This document shows positions 1-11,457 of a stretch of 12,689 nucleotides of DNA, piece after piece. The DNA comes from Eubacteriales bacterium (GTDB lineage Bacteria; Bacillota; Clostridia; Oscillospirales; Oscillospiraceae). Below the pieces are notes generated by a model, which saw only the letters and a program-made list of their open reading frames with translations, did not search any database and had not been told where the DNA came from. Position 1 is the first letter of the stretch; each line of letters begins with the position of its first letter. The stretch is from positions 5,731 to 18,419 of the forward strand of contig JAUMXS010000012.1 in NCBI GenBank assembly GCA_030528965.1, in the 5' to 3' direction. The translations under genes were made by a program, and so were the position numbers.

Positions 1-69
1 GGCGCCTTCGGCGAGCCAGGGATCTGCGTCGTTCCGGGTGATGACCCGGCCGTTTCCGATCAAAAGCAT
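1..69 (-). CDS. Amidohydrolase family protein, N-terminal fragment (gene runs off the window)
   Basis: Only the first 23 codons are inside the window, reading MLLIGNGRVITRNDADPWLA and then EGA on the minus strand from an ATG at 69. The start is secure: an AAGGAGG ribosome site lies at 77-83, 7 bases upstream. The short strand pattern LLIGNGRVIT followed by an acidic stretch and a 'DGA/EGA' turn is the usual first beta-hairpin of metal-dependent amidohydrolases (cytosine deaminase, SsnA and YtcJ-like groups), where the N-terminal strands form a small sandwich domain before the TIM barrel. None of the metal ligands (HxH, later His and Asp) are in view, so substrate and even the exact family are inference. 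It is preceded by a long leader with promoter, structured RNA and terminator (see 70-257), so its expression is probably controlled by transcription attenuation. Confidence 0.6.
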   Translation of the reverse strand, partial: MLLIGNGRVITRNDADPWLAEGA

Positions 70-76
70 ATTGCTG

Positions 77-83
77 CCTCCTT
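77..83 (-). promoter_or_regulatory. Ribosome binding site of the amidohydrolase
   Basis: Minus strand AAGGAGG, 7 bases before the ATG at 69. It sits just beyond the T-run of the leader terminator, so it is transcribed only when termination fails. Confidence 0.85.
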
Positions 84-92
84 ATCAGAAGA

Positions 93-128
93 TGAATAAA
101 AAAATAAGAGCATCCCAAGTGGATGCCC
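93..128 (-). terminator. Intrinsic terminator inside the amidohydrolase leader
   Basis: On the minus strand GGGCATCC and GGATGCTC form an 8-pair stem (one G-U) around the loop ACTTG, followed at once by TTATTTTTTT. There is no gene upstream on this strand for it to end, and it lies between a good promoter (229-257) and the ribosome site at 77-83. That placement is typical of an attenuator, not of a gene-end terminator. The plus strand has an A-run on that side, so it cannot act as a plus-strand terminator. Confidence 0.8.
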
Positions 129-223
129 TGTCCGGAATGGCCGCATGGTCACGGCCCCGGTCGGGCAGTCCCATGACCCGTGTGCTAGACACTTCGTTTC
201 AGCCATTTACCCTATCCTTATTT
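129..223 (-). promoter_or_regulatory. Structured 5' leader RNA, riboswitch-like three-way junction, class not recognised
   Basis: Read on the minus strand, three stems nest into a junction. P1: AATGGCTG (200-207) with CGGCCATT (136-143), 8 pairs including one U-G. P2: GTGT with ACAC around loop CTAGC (180-192). P3: GGTCATGG (171-178) with CCGTGACC (147-154), 8 pairs with one U-G, capped by an inner CCCG/CGGG hairpin (156-165). The junction linkers are AAACGAA, G and AT. The terminator at 93-128 follows directly. A possible switch pairing is TGCCC in the P3 cap (163-167) with GGGCA in the terminator's first arm (124-128). Parts such as GTGTCTAG and GACTG..CCGA faintly recall the ykkC family, but its conserved 3' half was not found, so no class is assigned. 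Structure is by eye; no folding energy or covariation was computed. Confidence 0.55.
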
Positions 224-228
224 CCCTC

Positions 229-257
229 ATCATACCAGACATCGGCCTCGATTGCAA
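229..257 (-). promoter_or_regulatory. Sigma-A promoter for the amidohydrolase leader
   Basis: Minus strand -35 TTGCAA (252-257), a 17-base spacer, and -10 TATGAT (229-234) preceded by TG one base away, an extended -10. Predicted start is near 222-224, giving an untranslated leader of about 150 bases. The rpmB promoter at 7885-7913 has the same -35 and the same spacing. Confidence 0.7.
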
Positions 258-3045: not shown

Positions 3046-3747
3046 ATGGCTTTTGTGGAATTTAAAAACGTAAAAAAGACCTATGTTATCGGCGAAGTGC
3101 AGATCGAAGCGCTGCGCGATGCGACGTTTACCATTGAAAAAGGAGAGATCTGCGTCATCGTGGGCGCCTCCGGCGCGGGAAAAACCACGCTGCTCAATAT
3201 TCTCGGCGGTATGGATACCCTTACCTCGGGGACGGTCCTGCTGGACGGAGAGGAGATTTCGCGGCTCAATTCCAAACAGCTGACGACCTACCGGCGGCTG
3301 GATGTGGGGTTCGTATTCCAGTTTTATAACCTAATTCAGAACCTCACGGCGCTGGAAAACGTGGAACTGTCGGCGCAGATCTGTCAGGATCCGCTGGATG
3401 CGGAGACGGTCCTGCGTGAAGTCGGACTGGGTGAGCGTCTGGATAATTTTCCCGCACAGCTCTCCGGCGGTGAACAGCAGCGCGTGGCGATCGCCCGCGC
3501 TCTGGCCAAAAATCCCAAGCTGCTGCTCTGCGATGAGCCGACCGGTGCGCTGGATTACAATACCGGCAAGGCCATTCTGCAGCTTCTGCAGGATACCTCC
3601 CGCAAAACAGGCATGACAGTGGTCATCATCACCCATAACTCCGCCCTTACGGCCATGGCCGATCGGGTCATCCGTGTGAAGAGCGGTATGGTTACGTCCG
3701 TGCGCTGCAACGAGAATCCCCTGCCGGTATCGGAGATCGAGTGGTAA
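3046..3747 (+). CDS. ABC transporter ATP-binding protein, MacB/LolD type
   Basis: A complete 233-residue nucleotide-binding subunit. Visible motifs: Walker A GASGAGKT (40-47), Q-loop Gln92 in [22 protein letters not shown] signature [15 protein letters not shown] (139-153), Walker B LLLCDEP with catalytic Glu164, D-loop GALD, and switch His197 in ITHN. The sequence [16 protein letters not shown] and the DEPTGALD ending are characteristic of the mechanotransmission (MacB, LolD, FtsE, BceA) class that works with FtsX-like permeases instead of classic transport channels. It is cytoplasmic and membrane-associated through its partner, almost certainly the large permease gene that begins 79 bases downstream. 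ATG3046 is preceded by the weak site GGCGGTG. It follows the acyltransferase by 38 bases with no terminator, so it can be read from the same transcript. Confidence 0.93.
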
Positions 3748-3826: not shown

Positions 3827-6800
3827 ATGCAAACAGGGCTGCGGAAAAATATAATACGTTCCATTCGCGGCTCTATGGGCCGCTTTTTGGCGATCCTCTG
3901 TATTATTGCGCTGGGTTCCGGTTTTTTGGCCGGGCTGACGGTTTCCGAGGACGCCATGCTCCGGACGGCGGACAGGTATCTCACAGCGCAGAATTTCTAT
4001 GATTACCGCCTGCTCTCGACGCTGGGCTTCCAGGAGGAACAACTGGAGGCTGTGGCGGCGATCGAGGGAGTGGAGACGGCGGAAGGCGGACGTGCGCAGG
4101 ATATTATCTGTCACATGGAGGGTAGCAGTTCTGAGTTTGTGCTGCATACGATGTCTCTTCCGGAACTTATCAATCTGCCCACGGTGACGGCGGGACGGCT
4201 GCCCGAAAAACCGGGCGAATGTCTGGCGGACAGCAATGTCTTTTCGGAAGAGGATATCGGAAAGGTCATCTGCCTTTCCGATACCAACGATCCGGACGAT
4301 CTGGACTTTTTCACCCGGCGGAAGTTCACGATCGTGGGGATCGCGCTTTCACCGCTGTATATGAACTATGAGCGCGGCGCGACCTCGCTCGGAAACGGCT
4401 CCATCCGCGCCTTCGTTTTCATTCCGGCGGAGAGCTATGATATGGACTTTTACACGGATATCTACCTGACTCTGGATGAGGGCGGATATCTCTATAACGA
4501 TACATACGAGAGCGCGGCGGATGCGATGGAACAGGCTGTCACGGAAGCCGGCGAACTCCAGGCGGATAAGAGATATCAGGGGATCCTGGCAGATGCCTGG
4601 GAAGAGATATACGACGCGGAGGAAGAACTGCGCGACGGTGAAGCGGAATATGCCGAGGAAAAGGCGAAAGCACTGCAGGAACTGCAGGATGCACTGCAGG
4701 AACTGCTGGAAGCGGAACAGGATATTGCCGACGGCGCACAGGAGATCGCGGATGGATGGATAGAACTCCGCGAGGAGTCCGAAAAGGCGCGGCAGGAACT
4801 TTTGGATGCCGAAGAAGAGCTGAAAGAAGCCGAGGAAAAGCTGCGTGACGGCGAAGAGGAGTACGAAGACGGACTGAAGAAACTGCAGGAGGCCCGGCTG
4901 GAATACGAAGATGGTCTGCAGAAATACAACGAGGGCTATCAGGACTATCTGGATGGTCTGGCGGAATATGAAGACGGTCTGGCGCAATATGAGGAAGCGC
5001 GCCGGGCATACAGCTCCGGAGGCGGTCAGATAGGAGATGCGAAAGAACAACTCGCCGCGGCGCAGGAACAGTATGAACAGCTGAGCGGTCTGTACGGCGC
5101 AGTGTCGGGGATCGCTGCCGGCATGGGCATGGATCCCGGTACCTTTGCGGCCTTTTTGCAGGGGCAGCTGGCAGCGGCGGAAGCCGGAGACCCGACAGCG
5201 CAGGGAACGGTTGCCATGCTTGACGCCTCTTTGTCTGCCTACGGTATGTCGGCGGCTTCTTTGTCCGCTGCGTGGCAGACGGCGGATGCGCAACTGCGTG
5301 CGCAGGGATATTCGGAAGGCTTGACGCAGCAGACTCTCTCCCGGGTGAAAGCATCGTTGGATGAGGGACAGCTCGCCTATAATCAGGGCGCGGAAACCAT
5401 GGAGCGCGCCTGGTGGCAGCTCACGATGGCGAAAGAGCAGCTCAATGAGGCAAAGGATGAGCTGGACAATGCGCGGAGAGAACTGGAAGATGCCCGAAAG
5501 GAACTGGAAGAGGGCGAGAAGGAACTGCTGGACGGAGAACGTGAGCTGGAAGACGCCCGAAAAGAACTGGACGACGGCTGGCAGGAATATACCGATGGTC
5601 TGCAGGAGGTCGCTGACGGCTGGGTCACGCTTGAACAGGAGACTGCCGATGCGGAAGCGGAGCTTCGGGATGCGGAGGCGGAACTGGCGGATGGACGAAT
5701 CGAATTGGCGGACGGCTGGGTCGAATACAATGACGGCACAGCGGAAGCAGAGGCGGAATTTGCCGATGCGGAAGCCGAACTTGAGGATGCGCGCCGGGAG
5801 ATCGACGATGCCAAAGAGGAACTGAACGATCTCAAGAAACCGACTTTGTATGTCCTGCGGCGTTCGGCCAACGTGGGGTATGTCTGTTTTCAGAACGATG
5901 CGTCCATCGTGGCGGGCATTGCCACGATTTTTCCGATCTTCTTTTTCCTTGTTGCGGCGCTGGTGTGCATTACGACCATGACGCGCATGGTGGATGAGCA
6001 GCGGACGGAGACCGGCACATTCAAGGCGCTGGGCTACGGAAGCGGTGCGATCATGATGCGCTTTCTCATCTATTCCGGAAGCGCGGCACTCATCGGCTGC
6101 ACATTGGGCGTTTGGCTGGGTAGTTTCGCCCTGCCTGCCGTGATCTGGAAGGCCTATTCTTCCATGTATCATTTCTCGGAAAAGCTTCTTTTCTATTTCG
6201 ATATAAAACTTGCCGCGGCGATCGTGCTGTCCTTCGTGCTCTGCACCTTCGGCGCCACATGGTATGCCTGCAGCCGTGATCTGGCGGAGGCGCCGGCAGA
6301 ACTCATCCGCCCGCGAGCTCCGAAAGCCGGCCGCCGCACCGTGCTGGAGCGGATCCCCTTCTTCTGGAACCGGCTGAACTTCTTCGGGAAGGTTTCCATG
6401 CGGAATATTTTGCGGTACAAGCAGAGACTGTTTATGATGGTACTCGGCATCGGCGGCTGTATGGCACTGCTCATCACCGGCTTCGGTATTATGGACTCCG
6501 TTAACGGCGTGGTGGATTATCAGTATGAGGAGATCACGCTTTATGACGGCTCTGTCAGTTTTCGGGAAGAACTGACGGAGGCGGACCGTGCGGAATTTCT
6601 CGGCGAATGTGGGGACGTGATCGAAGAGATCGTGTTCCAGCACGAGAGCGCGACGGACGCGACCGCCGATGGCGTCACAAAGACGACGACGCTTCTGGCA
6701 CCGGAGACAGAGGATTACAGCGCATTTATCGATCTGCATGCCGACGGGCAGCCGATACCTTTGCCGGGGCTGCATGAGGCTGTGATCAACGACAATCTGG

Positions 6801-7501
6801 CCGATACGCTGGGTCTGCGTGTGGGCGACAGTTTCACGACGCTCAACAGTGACATGGAGCAGCTCGTCCTGAAGGTTTCCGGCATTTACGAAAACCACGT
6901 CGAAAATTACTGCATCATCCGTCCGGAAACCTATGCGGCACAGCTGGGAGGGACTTGTCCGATCCAGTCCGCTTATGTGAATTTCCGGGAAGGCGAGGAT
7001 ATATACACCGGCTCCGCAAAACTTCTGAGCAATGATCTTGTGGGTAATGTTTCCCTCTGCGCGGATATGCGTGACCGCCTGGCCACCTCGCTGCAGAGTA
7101 TGGGCTATATCATTATTGCCGTGGTGGTCAGTGCCGGGGCCCTGGCGTTTATCGTGCTTTATAACCTGACGAATATCAACATCAACGAACGCATCCGGGA
7201 GATCGCCACCATCAAGGTGCTGGGGTTCTATCCGCGGGAGACAGCCTGGTATGTGTTCCGGGAGAACATCGTGCTTACCCTGCTGGGGGCGCTTGCGGGC
7301 ATTCCCATGGGTATCGGACTGCATCGGTTCGTGATGTATAATGTCAAGATTGATCTGATGCGTTTTGACGTGCGGATCAGCCTGATGAGCTTTGTGATCT
7401 GTTTCGTCCTTACGATCGTGTTTTCTCTGCTGGTCGACTGGATCATGCTCCCACGCCTGCGGAAGATCAATATGGCGGAGTCGCTCAAATCCATTGAATG
7501 A
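3827..7501 (+). CDS. FtsX-like ABC permease with giant coiled-coil hairpin
   Basis: A 1224-residue permease. Transmembrane helices are seen near residues 20-38, 694-720, 742-770, 795-815, 868-893, 1092-1113, 1149-1170 and 1187-1210, that is two MacB-like 1+3 sets. Each three-helix set carries the FtsX pattern (MTRMVDEQRTETGTFKALGY and ININERIREIATIKVLGFYP), the cytoplasmic coupling helix that meets the ATPase. Residues 40-240 and 894-1090 are extracytoplasmic domains. Between the first helix and the first three-helix set is a strongly charged insert (about 245-668) rich in repeats such as LxDGxxEY. It reads as two long helical arms (about 245-391 and 508-667) joined by an Ala/Gly/Ser-rich tip, so probably an antiparallel coiled-coil rod projecting outside. 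It pairs with the preceding ATPase. Such permeases in Clostridia use ATP to move envelope components or signal mechanically; the substrate is unknown. The ribosome site is weak (GAAAGAAG). Confidence 0.88.
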   Translation: MQTGLRKNIIRSIRGSMGRFLAILCIIALGSGFLAGLTVSEDAMLRTADRYLTAQNFYDYRLLSTLGFQEEQLEAVAAIEGVETAEGGRAQDIICHMEGSSSEFVLHTMSLPELINLPTVTAGRLPEKPGECLADSNVFSEEDIGKVICLSDTNDPDDLDFFTRRKFTIVGIALSPLYMNYERGATSLGNGSIRAFVFIPAESYDMDFYTDIYLTLDEGGYLYNDTYESAADAMEQAVTEAGELQADKRYQGILADAWEEIYDAEEELRDGEAEYAEEKAKALQELQDALQELLEAEQDIADGAQEIADGWIELREESEKARQELLDAEEELKEAEEKLRDGEEEYEDGLKKLQEARLEYEDGLQKYNEGYQDYLDGLAEYEDGLAQYEEARRAYSSGGGQIGDAKEQLAAAQEQYEQLSGLYGAVSGIAAGMGMDPGTFAAFLQGQLAAAEAGDPTAQGTVAMLDASLSAYGMSAASLSAAWQTADAQLRAQGYSEGLTQQTLSRVKASLDEGQLAYNQGAETMERAWWQLTMAKEQLNEAKDELDNARRELEDARKELEEGEKELLDGERELEDARKELDDGWQEYTDGLQEVADGWVTLEQETADAEAELRDAEAELADGRIELADGWVEYNDGTAEAEAEFADAEAELEDARREIDDAKEELNDLKKPTLYVLRRSANVGYVCFQNDASIVAGIATIFPIFFFLVAALVCITTMTRMVDEQRTETGTFKALGYGSGAIMMRFLIYSGSAALIGCTLGVWLGSFALPAVIWKAYSSMYHFSEKLLFYFDIKLAAAIVLSFVLCTFGATWYACSRDLAEAPAELIRPRAPKAGRRTVLERIPFFWNRLNFFGKVSMRNILRYKQRLFMMVLGIGGCMALLITGFGIMDSVNGVVDYQYEEITLYDGSVSFREELTEADRAEFLGECGDVIEEIVFQHESATDATADGVTKTTTLLAPETEDYSAFIDLHADGQPIPLPGLHEAVINDNLADTLGLRVGDSFTTLNSDMEQLVLKVSGIYENHVENYCIIRPETYAAQLGGTCPIQSAYVNFREGEDIYTGSAKLLSNDLVGNVSLCADMRDRLATSLQSMGYIIIAVVVSAGALAFIVLYNLTNININERIREIATIKVLGFYPRETAWYVFRENIVLTLLGALAGIPMGIGLHRFVMYNVKIDLMRFDVRISLMSFVICFVLTIVFSLLVDWIMLPRLRKINMAESLKSIE
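4560..5828 (+). repeat. Degenerate heptad repeats encoding the permease coiled coil
   Basis: GAAGACGG, GAACTGGAAGA, CTGCAGGA and GCGGATGG-like words recur through the DNA of the two helical arms. In protein they are 7-residue periods with Leu/Tyr and Asp-Gly positions (for example YxDGLxEYxDGLAQY). The repeats are diverged, not tandem identical units, so they reflect protein periodicity and probable past internal duplication. Confidence 0.6.
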
Positions 7502-7651: not shown

Positions 7652-7840
7652 TTACTGGGCCCGGGTGACCTTTCCGCTGCGGAGGCAGCGGGTGCAGGCG
7701 TAGACATGCTTCGGAGAGCCGTCCACAATGGCCTTAACGCGTTTGACATTGGGCTTCCACACGCGGTTGGAACGACGGTGGGAGTGGCTGACACGGATAC
7801 CGAAAACAACGCCCTTGTCACAGAACTCGCACTTTGCCAT
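7652..7840 (-). CDS. rpmB: 50S ribosomal protein L28 (bL28)
   Basis: A 62-residue basic protein starting MAKCEFCDKGVVFGIRVSHS and ending in KVTRAQ. The family core FGxxVSHSHRRSNRVWKPNV is intact, and two CxxC pairs (Cys4/Cys7 and Cys49/Cys52) give the zinc-binding 'C+' form of bL28, as opposed to the zinc-free paralogue induced by zinc starvation in some bacteria. It binds 23S rRNA near the exit-site region of the large subunit. ATG7840 is chosen over an upstream in-frame ATG at 7882 because AAGGAGGTG lies 4 bases before it and the family begins at MAK. It is monocistronic, with its own promoter (7885-7913) and terminator (7595-7620), the usual arrangement in Bacillota. Confidence 0.97.
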   Translation of the reverse strand: MAKCEFCDKGVVFGIRVSHSHRRSNRVWKPNVKRVKAIVDGSPKHVYACTRCLRSGKVTRAQ

Positions 7841-7844
7841 GCTG

Positions 7845-7853
7845 CACCTCCTT
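7845..7853 (-). promoter_or_regulatory. Ribosome binding site of rpmB
   Basis: Minus strand AAGGAGGTG, 4 bases before ATG7840. It settles the start against the upstream ATG at 7882. A small CGTCC/GGACG hairpin (7864-7877) stands just upstream in the untranslated leader. Confidence 0.9.
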
Positions 7854-7884
7854 CGATTATTTTCGTCCAAACGGACGCCCAAAT

Positions 7885-11418: not shown

Positions 11419-11457
11419 AAAAAGGTCCCGGGAAGTATTTCTCCCGGGACCTTTTTT
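11419..11457 (+). terminator. Bidirectional terminator after the solute-binding protein
   Basis: AAAAAGGTCCCGGGA (11419-11433) and TCCCGGGACCTTTTTT (11442-11457) form a long perfect stem around AGTATTTC, with T-runs in both directions. It starts 5 bases after the stop codon. Confidence 0.93.

Follow-up and report, generated by a model that had tools for sequence, protein, structure and literature searches.

A leader before ssnA in an Oscillospiraceae genome, very likely a divergent relative of the orphan ssnA RNA, as a possible ON switch for reductive uric-acid degradation

What kind of regulatory RNA precedes an amidohydrolase gene at the left end of this Oscillospiraceae contig piece, and to which signal could it respond? 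The window, i.e. the whole stretch of 12,689 nucleotides analyzed, carries there a leader which a preliminary description, made from the letters alone, had read as an unassigned riboswitch-like attenuator. The parts it had listed were all found on the minus strand in the order given, with coordinates exact or off by a few bases, and the simplest of them are the following:

229..257, minus strand: promoter TTGCAA-17-TATGAT with an extended -10 TG (pattern count)
98..129, minus strand: intrinsic terminator, stem 129-107, T-run 106-98 (sequence)
77..83, minus strand: ribosome-binding site AAGGAGG (by eye)
1..69, minus strand: first 23 codons of ssnA (MLLIGNGRVITRNDADPWLAEGA), start ATG 69-67; the gene runs on past a short N run outside the window

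The promoter pattern is present once in positions 1-700, against a mean of 0.3 in shuffles, and the transcript is expected to start near 223-222. The terminator reads AGGGCATCC-ACTTG-GGATGCTCT, then TATTTTTTTA; the span of 93-128 given earlier had counted the T-run. Present as described are also the GTGT/ACAC hairpin with loop CTAGC and two stems of eight pairs, AATGGCTG (207-200) with CGGCCATT (143-136) and GGTCATGG (178-171) with CCGTGACC (154-147). The whole leader folds barely better than its shuffles, with a z of -1.22 and 21 of 200 shuffled versions doing as well. Its general character, a transcription-attenuator-like leader of an amidohydrolase gene with alternative pairings, was borne out, and it is probably a terminator/antiterminator switch.

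The frame that opens at 69-67 starts MLLIGNGRVITR, and past the N run the protein is recognized as SsnA by NF005540 (542 bits, cut-off 444) and TIGR03314 (477, cut-off 455.5). The next gene encodes YgfK (TIGR03315, 1156.5, cut-off 835.3), while the best family of the third gene, a fragment, is the selenium-dependent xanthine dehydrogenase TIGR03311, with a score of 566.8 that lies under the cut-off of 830. Judged by these sequence families, ssnA, ygfK and the xanthine-dehydrogenase-like gene are genes of reductive uric-acid degradation. In this pathway, according to the accessible part of PMC12507026, uric acid is converted to yanthine by XdhD and the ring is then opened by YgfK and SsnA. Anaerobic breakdown of uric acid, including the role of ssnA, is described as a gout-related gut function in the accessible parts of PMC12507026 and PMC12990295.

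The pieces joined at the N run, which lies next to position 1 of the window (about 5719-5730 of L002), repeat ssnA N-termini with differences, VITRNDADPWLAEGA and VITRDTDSPYFECGA, and the scaffold was probably joined there from different strains or with a misjudged gap. Away from the leader, a strong inverted repeat, AAAGGTCCCGGG...CCCGGGACCTTT, occupies 11421-11450; it attracts chance His_leader and Termite-leu scores and is a probable two-way terminator. Other genes of the window are:

3058-3747, plus strand: ABC ATPase
3827-7501, plus strand: permease-like protein of 1224 amino acids with a coiled-coil-like stretch, after the ABC ATPase
7652-7882, minus strand: ribosomal protein L28
8007-8804, minus strand: ParB/Noc-family protein

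To which RNA class does the leader belong? An Rfam 15 scan of the window (E up to 10) matched ssnA RNA, RF03031, at 202-177 of the minus strand with 23.1 bits and E 0.023. The Rfam check proposed earlier for this strand thus gave a match, yet one that is partial (model positions 11-36 of 48) and under the gathering score of 37.3 bits, which is why we call the leader a divergent relative and not a catalogued member. Within 70-257 the same scan returned, besides ssnA, a weak match to XIST_A_REPEAT. The preliminary description was right to place the leader outside the well-known riboswitch classes; the word unassigned has to give way to kinship with RF03031. No ykkC match appeared in the scan (E up to 10), so that the ykkC flavour once suspected found no counterpart, and membership in ykkC (guanidine-I and relatives) was rejected on the same ground.

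The kinship was recovered by further models. In the 1.25-Mb genome (assembly 71% complete) the only RF03031 match at E 0.001 is the leader copy, with E 5.2e-4. A covariance model R1, built from 50 dissimilar cores with the window excluded, gave 33.5 bits at 210-168, the second-best place reaching 7.9, and its scan of the genome found the leader (E 4.5e-5) and no other match at E up to 1. With both the window and its nearest relative L022 excluded, model R2 (49 relatives) still placed the window at 210-168 with 31.3 bits and E 3.4e-6 (second-best place in the window 9.1), and gave L022 15.9 bits with E 0.025. By R1 and R2, whose scores extend over the full model, the leader has the RF03031 arrangement of a stem P1, an 8/1 internal loop and a four-pair GUGN hairpin. 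Its letters at 200-177, GAAACGAA, GUGU and ACGGG, correspond to the family's GNAACGNA, GUG and ACGGG, and ssnA lies downstream as in the family, with the N-terminus at 69-1 and SsnA past the gap. On this evidence the leader (minus strand, 257-67) is very likely a divergent relative of ssnA RNA, an orphan class of Rfam; its kind is already catalogued in Rfam and is not a new RNA class.

The ssnA RNA class reportedly originates from a 2017 survey of 224 candidate RNAs. Our literature search, which covered mostly papers outside subscription, had no paper on ssnA RNA among the matches listed, and the accessible parts of PMC7266159, PMC9295807 and PMC11448449 do not mention ssnA. With the window's own genome counted and the samples overlapping, RF03031 is present in 109 of 400 genomes of the family (102 above the cut-off), 18 of 394 of the order (15 above) and 6 of 391 of the class (0 above).

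The conserved part of the leader is compact:

173..206, minus strand: ssnA-RNA core, proposed aptamer (RF03031 partial match, R1, R2, pair counts on relatives)

It consists of P1 (206-201/178-173, AUGGCU/GGUCAU, with two G-U pairs), an internal loop of 8 nt (200-193) against 1 nt (G179), and a hairpin (192-189/183-180, GUGU/ACAC, loop 188-184). The Rfam structure line is consistent with this anatomy for the four relatives compared. P1 reads UAGCU/GGCUG in most relatives and AUGACC/GGUCAU in L022. In an alignment of 50 cores 91.2% of the cells pair, as against at most 57.4% in slid registers, and both sides change in five of the ten pairs, in 21 such cells where shuffles give 10.9 (0 of 500 as high). 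Leaving out L022 gives nearly the same picture (91.0% paired, five two-sided pairs, 18 cells versus 10.3, slid registers at most 57.6%). Of the six P1 pairs, the outermost is missing from 30 of the 50 cores and its neighbor from 13, so that only the inner four are general; since most inner pairs are nearly invariant, covariation is modest. Part of the constancy of loop and hairpin comes from our search pattern, which prescribed G, A and A within the loop and, besides, GUG, AC, G and GG; it left more freedom to the innermost pair of the hairpin and to the four outer pairs of P1. Upstream of the core, inspection by eye shows a GTGCACA-like element in L037, L043, L056 and L099, and more weakly in L027, L077 and L080. 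It is complementary to the core hairpin arms and might be their alternative partner in a ligand-free state.

The low Rfam score and the two G-U pairs of P1 could also be attributed to decay, with nothing but a terminator and remnants of a core left of a former ssnA RNA. We consider this improbable, because under R2, built without either, the window scores about twice as high as L022, and because the loop GAAACGAA and ACGGG fit the consensus while promoter and terminator are intact.

The two stems of eight pairs had been taken as a three-way junction forming the aptamer:

136..207, minus strand: three-way junction 207-200/143-136 plus 178-171/154-147, the proposed OFF-state fold (folding, shuffles)

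Both stems in three-way order occur in only 2 of 20,000 dinucleotide shuffles of 170-130, although singly a P3-like stem is found in 1,458 of them and a P1-like stem in 158. Despite the weak fold score of the whole leader, the joint stems are therefore beyond chance, which is the point in favor of a distinct new riboswitch class with the junction as its aptamer. As a conserved aptamer the junction was rejected: the geometry is shared by three of 147 leaders (the window, L137 and L178), and its stems consume both strands of the conserved P1. Together with the kinship to ssnA RNA this makes a new class very improbable.

Of the two switch pairings proposed earlier, TGCCC with GGGCA exists, inside a longer helix of eight pairs with one bulge:

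121..171, minus strand: proposed antiterminator, 171-169 and 167-163 with 128-121, enclosing 160-157/135-132 and 156-151/144-139 (minimum-energy fold of the transcript to 121; predicted function)

The second, AAATAAGG with TCTTATTT, does pair in the full-length minimum-energy fold; it could hardly act as a termination switch, since the T-run must already have been transcribed for it to form, and it was set aside in that role. The antiterminator begins two nucleotides beyond the last paired base of P1 (173). In 20,000 shuffles of 170-130 a helix of this kind lies within 2 nt of P1 in 384 and at any position in 2,928; by itself the first count is weak evidence for the antiterminator.

To follow the growing transcript we calculated model ensemble energies (kcal/mol). 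A transcript that stops at 135 has the three-way junction as its free minimum (-30.4 unconstrained, -23.5 with the core imposed). At 121, where the first arm of the terminator has emerged, the minimum is P1 plus antiterminator, with the hairpin 160-132 enclosed (-37.0 unconstrained, -34.5 with the core and -32.6 with the junction imposed), and at 103 it is the junction plus terminator (-46.6 unconstrained, -41.7 with the core and -44.9 with the junction imposed). Finally, at 96 the 5' end is paired with the T-run in the free minimum (-49.2 unconstrained, -47.4 with the junction and -44.8 with the core imposed). The most plausible reading of these folds takes the junction stems for the OFF state and core plus antiterminator for the ON state. 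Without ligand, both P1 strands would re-pair downstream into the junction and the core would be broken; the junction being incompatible with the antiterminator, the terminator (129-107) would form and transcription would end. With ligand, the core would be held and 171-163 left free to pair with 128-121, the antiterminator thus consuming the first arm of the terminator and allowing read-through into ssnA-ygfK-xdh. In this model a ligand contributing a few kcal/mol would be enough to shift the equilibrium between junction and core. At equilibrium the antiterminator of the window is independent of the core (mean arm pairing 0.87 with it and 0.88 without), and a ligand would therefore act by keeping the P1 strands out of the junction, probably kinetically. 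For this reason we set our confidence in the main reading, a divergent ssnA RNA that switches reductive uric-acid degradation on at the level of transcription, at about 0.55.

Relatives bear on both the regulon and the direction of switching. Among the best 80 of 369 SsnA relatives, the named genomes are mostly Oscillospiraceae, Oscillibacter, Flavonifractor, Dysosmobacter etc., and the core pattern stands upstream of ssnA in 70 of the 80. Of the 149 pattern matches in the fetched loci, 140 stand before an SsnA frame; the other nine are three before nfnAB-like genes, one before a hyuA-like gene, two at contig ends (L126, L140), the window, and two spurious second matches (L032, L133). The nfnAB reading (L159, L171, L176) comes from profiles, one protein each, of a sulfide/dihydroorotate-dehydrogenase-like FAD/NAD protein and a GltA-type oxidoreductase, while the target in L170 is a dihydropyrimidinase/hydantoinase, which we read as hyuA. 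Beyond ssnA, these nfnAB-like and hyuA-like genes are the only ones in the fetched loci that the core precedes. Where ssnA lacks the motif, no known riboswitch stood before it at gathering scores in the seven of ten loci scanned (all but L029, L098 and L100), the Rfam matches of L093 (glycine riboswitch, SECIS) falling downstream of ssnA. After ssnA the operon of L088 encodes a YgfK-like protein, a molybdopterin hydroxylase and a PALP enzyme, which would correspond to the published pathway's YgfK, XdhD and YgeX. Upstream of this operon and divergent from it (L088:8855-9502, minus strand) lies a gene for a YheO-like protein with PAS and HTH_22 parts, which might act as a DNA-binding regulator.

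For folding we kept 137 leaders, that is, the 149 matches minus two without the strict motif and ten without a called terminator. In 14 of them the terminator stem starts within the core, of which it uses 1 to 15 nucleotides; L170 (hyuA-like), L159, L171 and L176 (nfnAB-like), L077 and L144 are among these leaders. Here core and terminator are mutually exclusive, and a ligand holding the core would consequently switch the genes on. The energy test divided the 137 leaders into nine with terminator pairs inside the core, 31 antagonistic by more than 1 kcal/mol, seven cooperative below -1 (L027, L016 twice, L108, L150, L184, L190) and 90 neutral; five of the 31 antagonistic ones also overlap the core (L133, L144, L159, L171, L176). 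Among the 123 leaders without overlap the core raises arm pairing in nine, lowers it in ten and leaves it flat in 104. Counted without a shuffle control, the first helix after P1 in these 123 runs into the terminator arm from 0-2 nt in 53 and from farther in 35, is absent in 33 and ends elsewhere in two, one of them L022, the nearest relative, which shows no antiterminator in its forced-core fold. In some leaders (L037, L056, L175) the terminator follows immediately 3' of P1. With folding neutral in the 123, and with L022 and the L037-like leaders as exceptions, the ON direction extends to them by homology only. The 14 overlaps argue for the ON direction; folding leaves the other 123 undecided.

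Some genomes hold two or three ssnA RNAs, namely those of L159 (G637), of L170 and L171 (G702) and of L176 (G728); the extra copies stand before nfnAB-like or hyuA-like genes in very short leaders whose terminators include the core. In L016 / L192 (G311, another family of the order) tandem ssnA RNAs lie 169 bases apart before one ssnA gene, possibly a cooperative or two-input arrangement.

The neutral folding of most leaders would also suit a metabolite riboswitch that works in the OFF direction, or one whose ligand lies outside the purines (a product, a metal, a selenium or nitrogen signal). By eye, Oscillibacter-type leaders have an outer helix readable as OFF logic: it pairs the 5' leader with the antiterminator strand and, if stabilized by a ligand, would let the terminator form. 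Such a switch is rather unlikely in view of the 14 overlaps and of a regulon limited here to uricolysis and electron supply. It is also at odds with the induction of the genes elsewhere: the accessible parts of PMC12990295 and PMC12542679 have ssnA and ygfK among genes induced by uric acid in distant gut bacteria. By analogy this induction would agree with an ON switch; it identifies no regulator.

The core could, instead of binding a metabolite, be the site of an RNA-binding antiterminator protein, as LicT/SacY at RAT or a PyrR-like protein, that holds the core in place and so blocks the terminator. In layout the core is reminiscent of a RAT site: it is a compact hairpin, about 34 nt long, its loop is asymmetric, and in 14 of 137 leaders it shares nucleotides with the terminator. 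No domain of this kind was found among ten proteins near ssnA in L030 and nine in L088 (E 1e-8, in these neighborhoods), and the 8/1 loop with GNAACGNA is conserved as in an aptamer, a constancy partly due to the search pattern. We regard protein binding as unlikely.

If the core is an aptamer, the regulon makes uric acid or a close oxidized purine (xanthine, yanthine) its most likely ligand. The fuller proposal is put forward tentatively, at somewhat less than even odds: ssnA RNA would be a riboswitch that turns transcription on in response to uric acid (or yanthine), with an aptamer core of about 34 nt, serving a reductive uricolysis regulon (ssnA-ygfK-xdh, hyuA, nfnAB) of Oscillospiraceae, and with the window and L022 as divergent forms. 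Regulon, compact leaders and the two-state model together give a short list of ligands, and an orphan RNA tied to a recently solved pathway has a testable ligand.

How does such an RNA compare with known systems? LicT/SacY RAT and PyrR sites would be analogous in placing a short asymmetric-loop hairpin over the terminator, as in some ssnA leaders, but the sequence of the ssnA core differs. With the variants of the guanine class (xanthine, guanine, 2'-deoxyguanosine) ssnA RNA would share purine sensing; guanine-class riboswitches have a three-way aptamer, whereas the ssnA core is a hairpin with one internal loop. Neither this class nor Xanthine-I (NMT1) had an Rfam match in the leader (E up to 10). 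Xanthine-I is likewise linked to purine breakdown, and the ligands proposed for ssnA RNA overlap with the xanthine and uric acid that it binds, but it is an OFF switch working mostly via translation (PMC7373994, accessible part). Its authors remarked, in the same part of that paper, that genes degrading oxidized purines are missing from the list for their class, and ssnA RNA is a candidate for this gap. The closest system is RF03031 itself, with which the window shares P1, the 8/1 internal loop (GNAACGNA versus G), the GUGN hairpin, ACGGG and the site before ssnA. It differs in P1 (AUGGCU/GGUCAU, in the family UAGCU/GGCUG), in the hairpin (GUGU/ACAC, in the family GUGC/GCAC) and in a proposed platform that re-pairs both P1 strands downstream.
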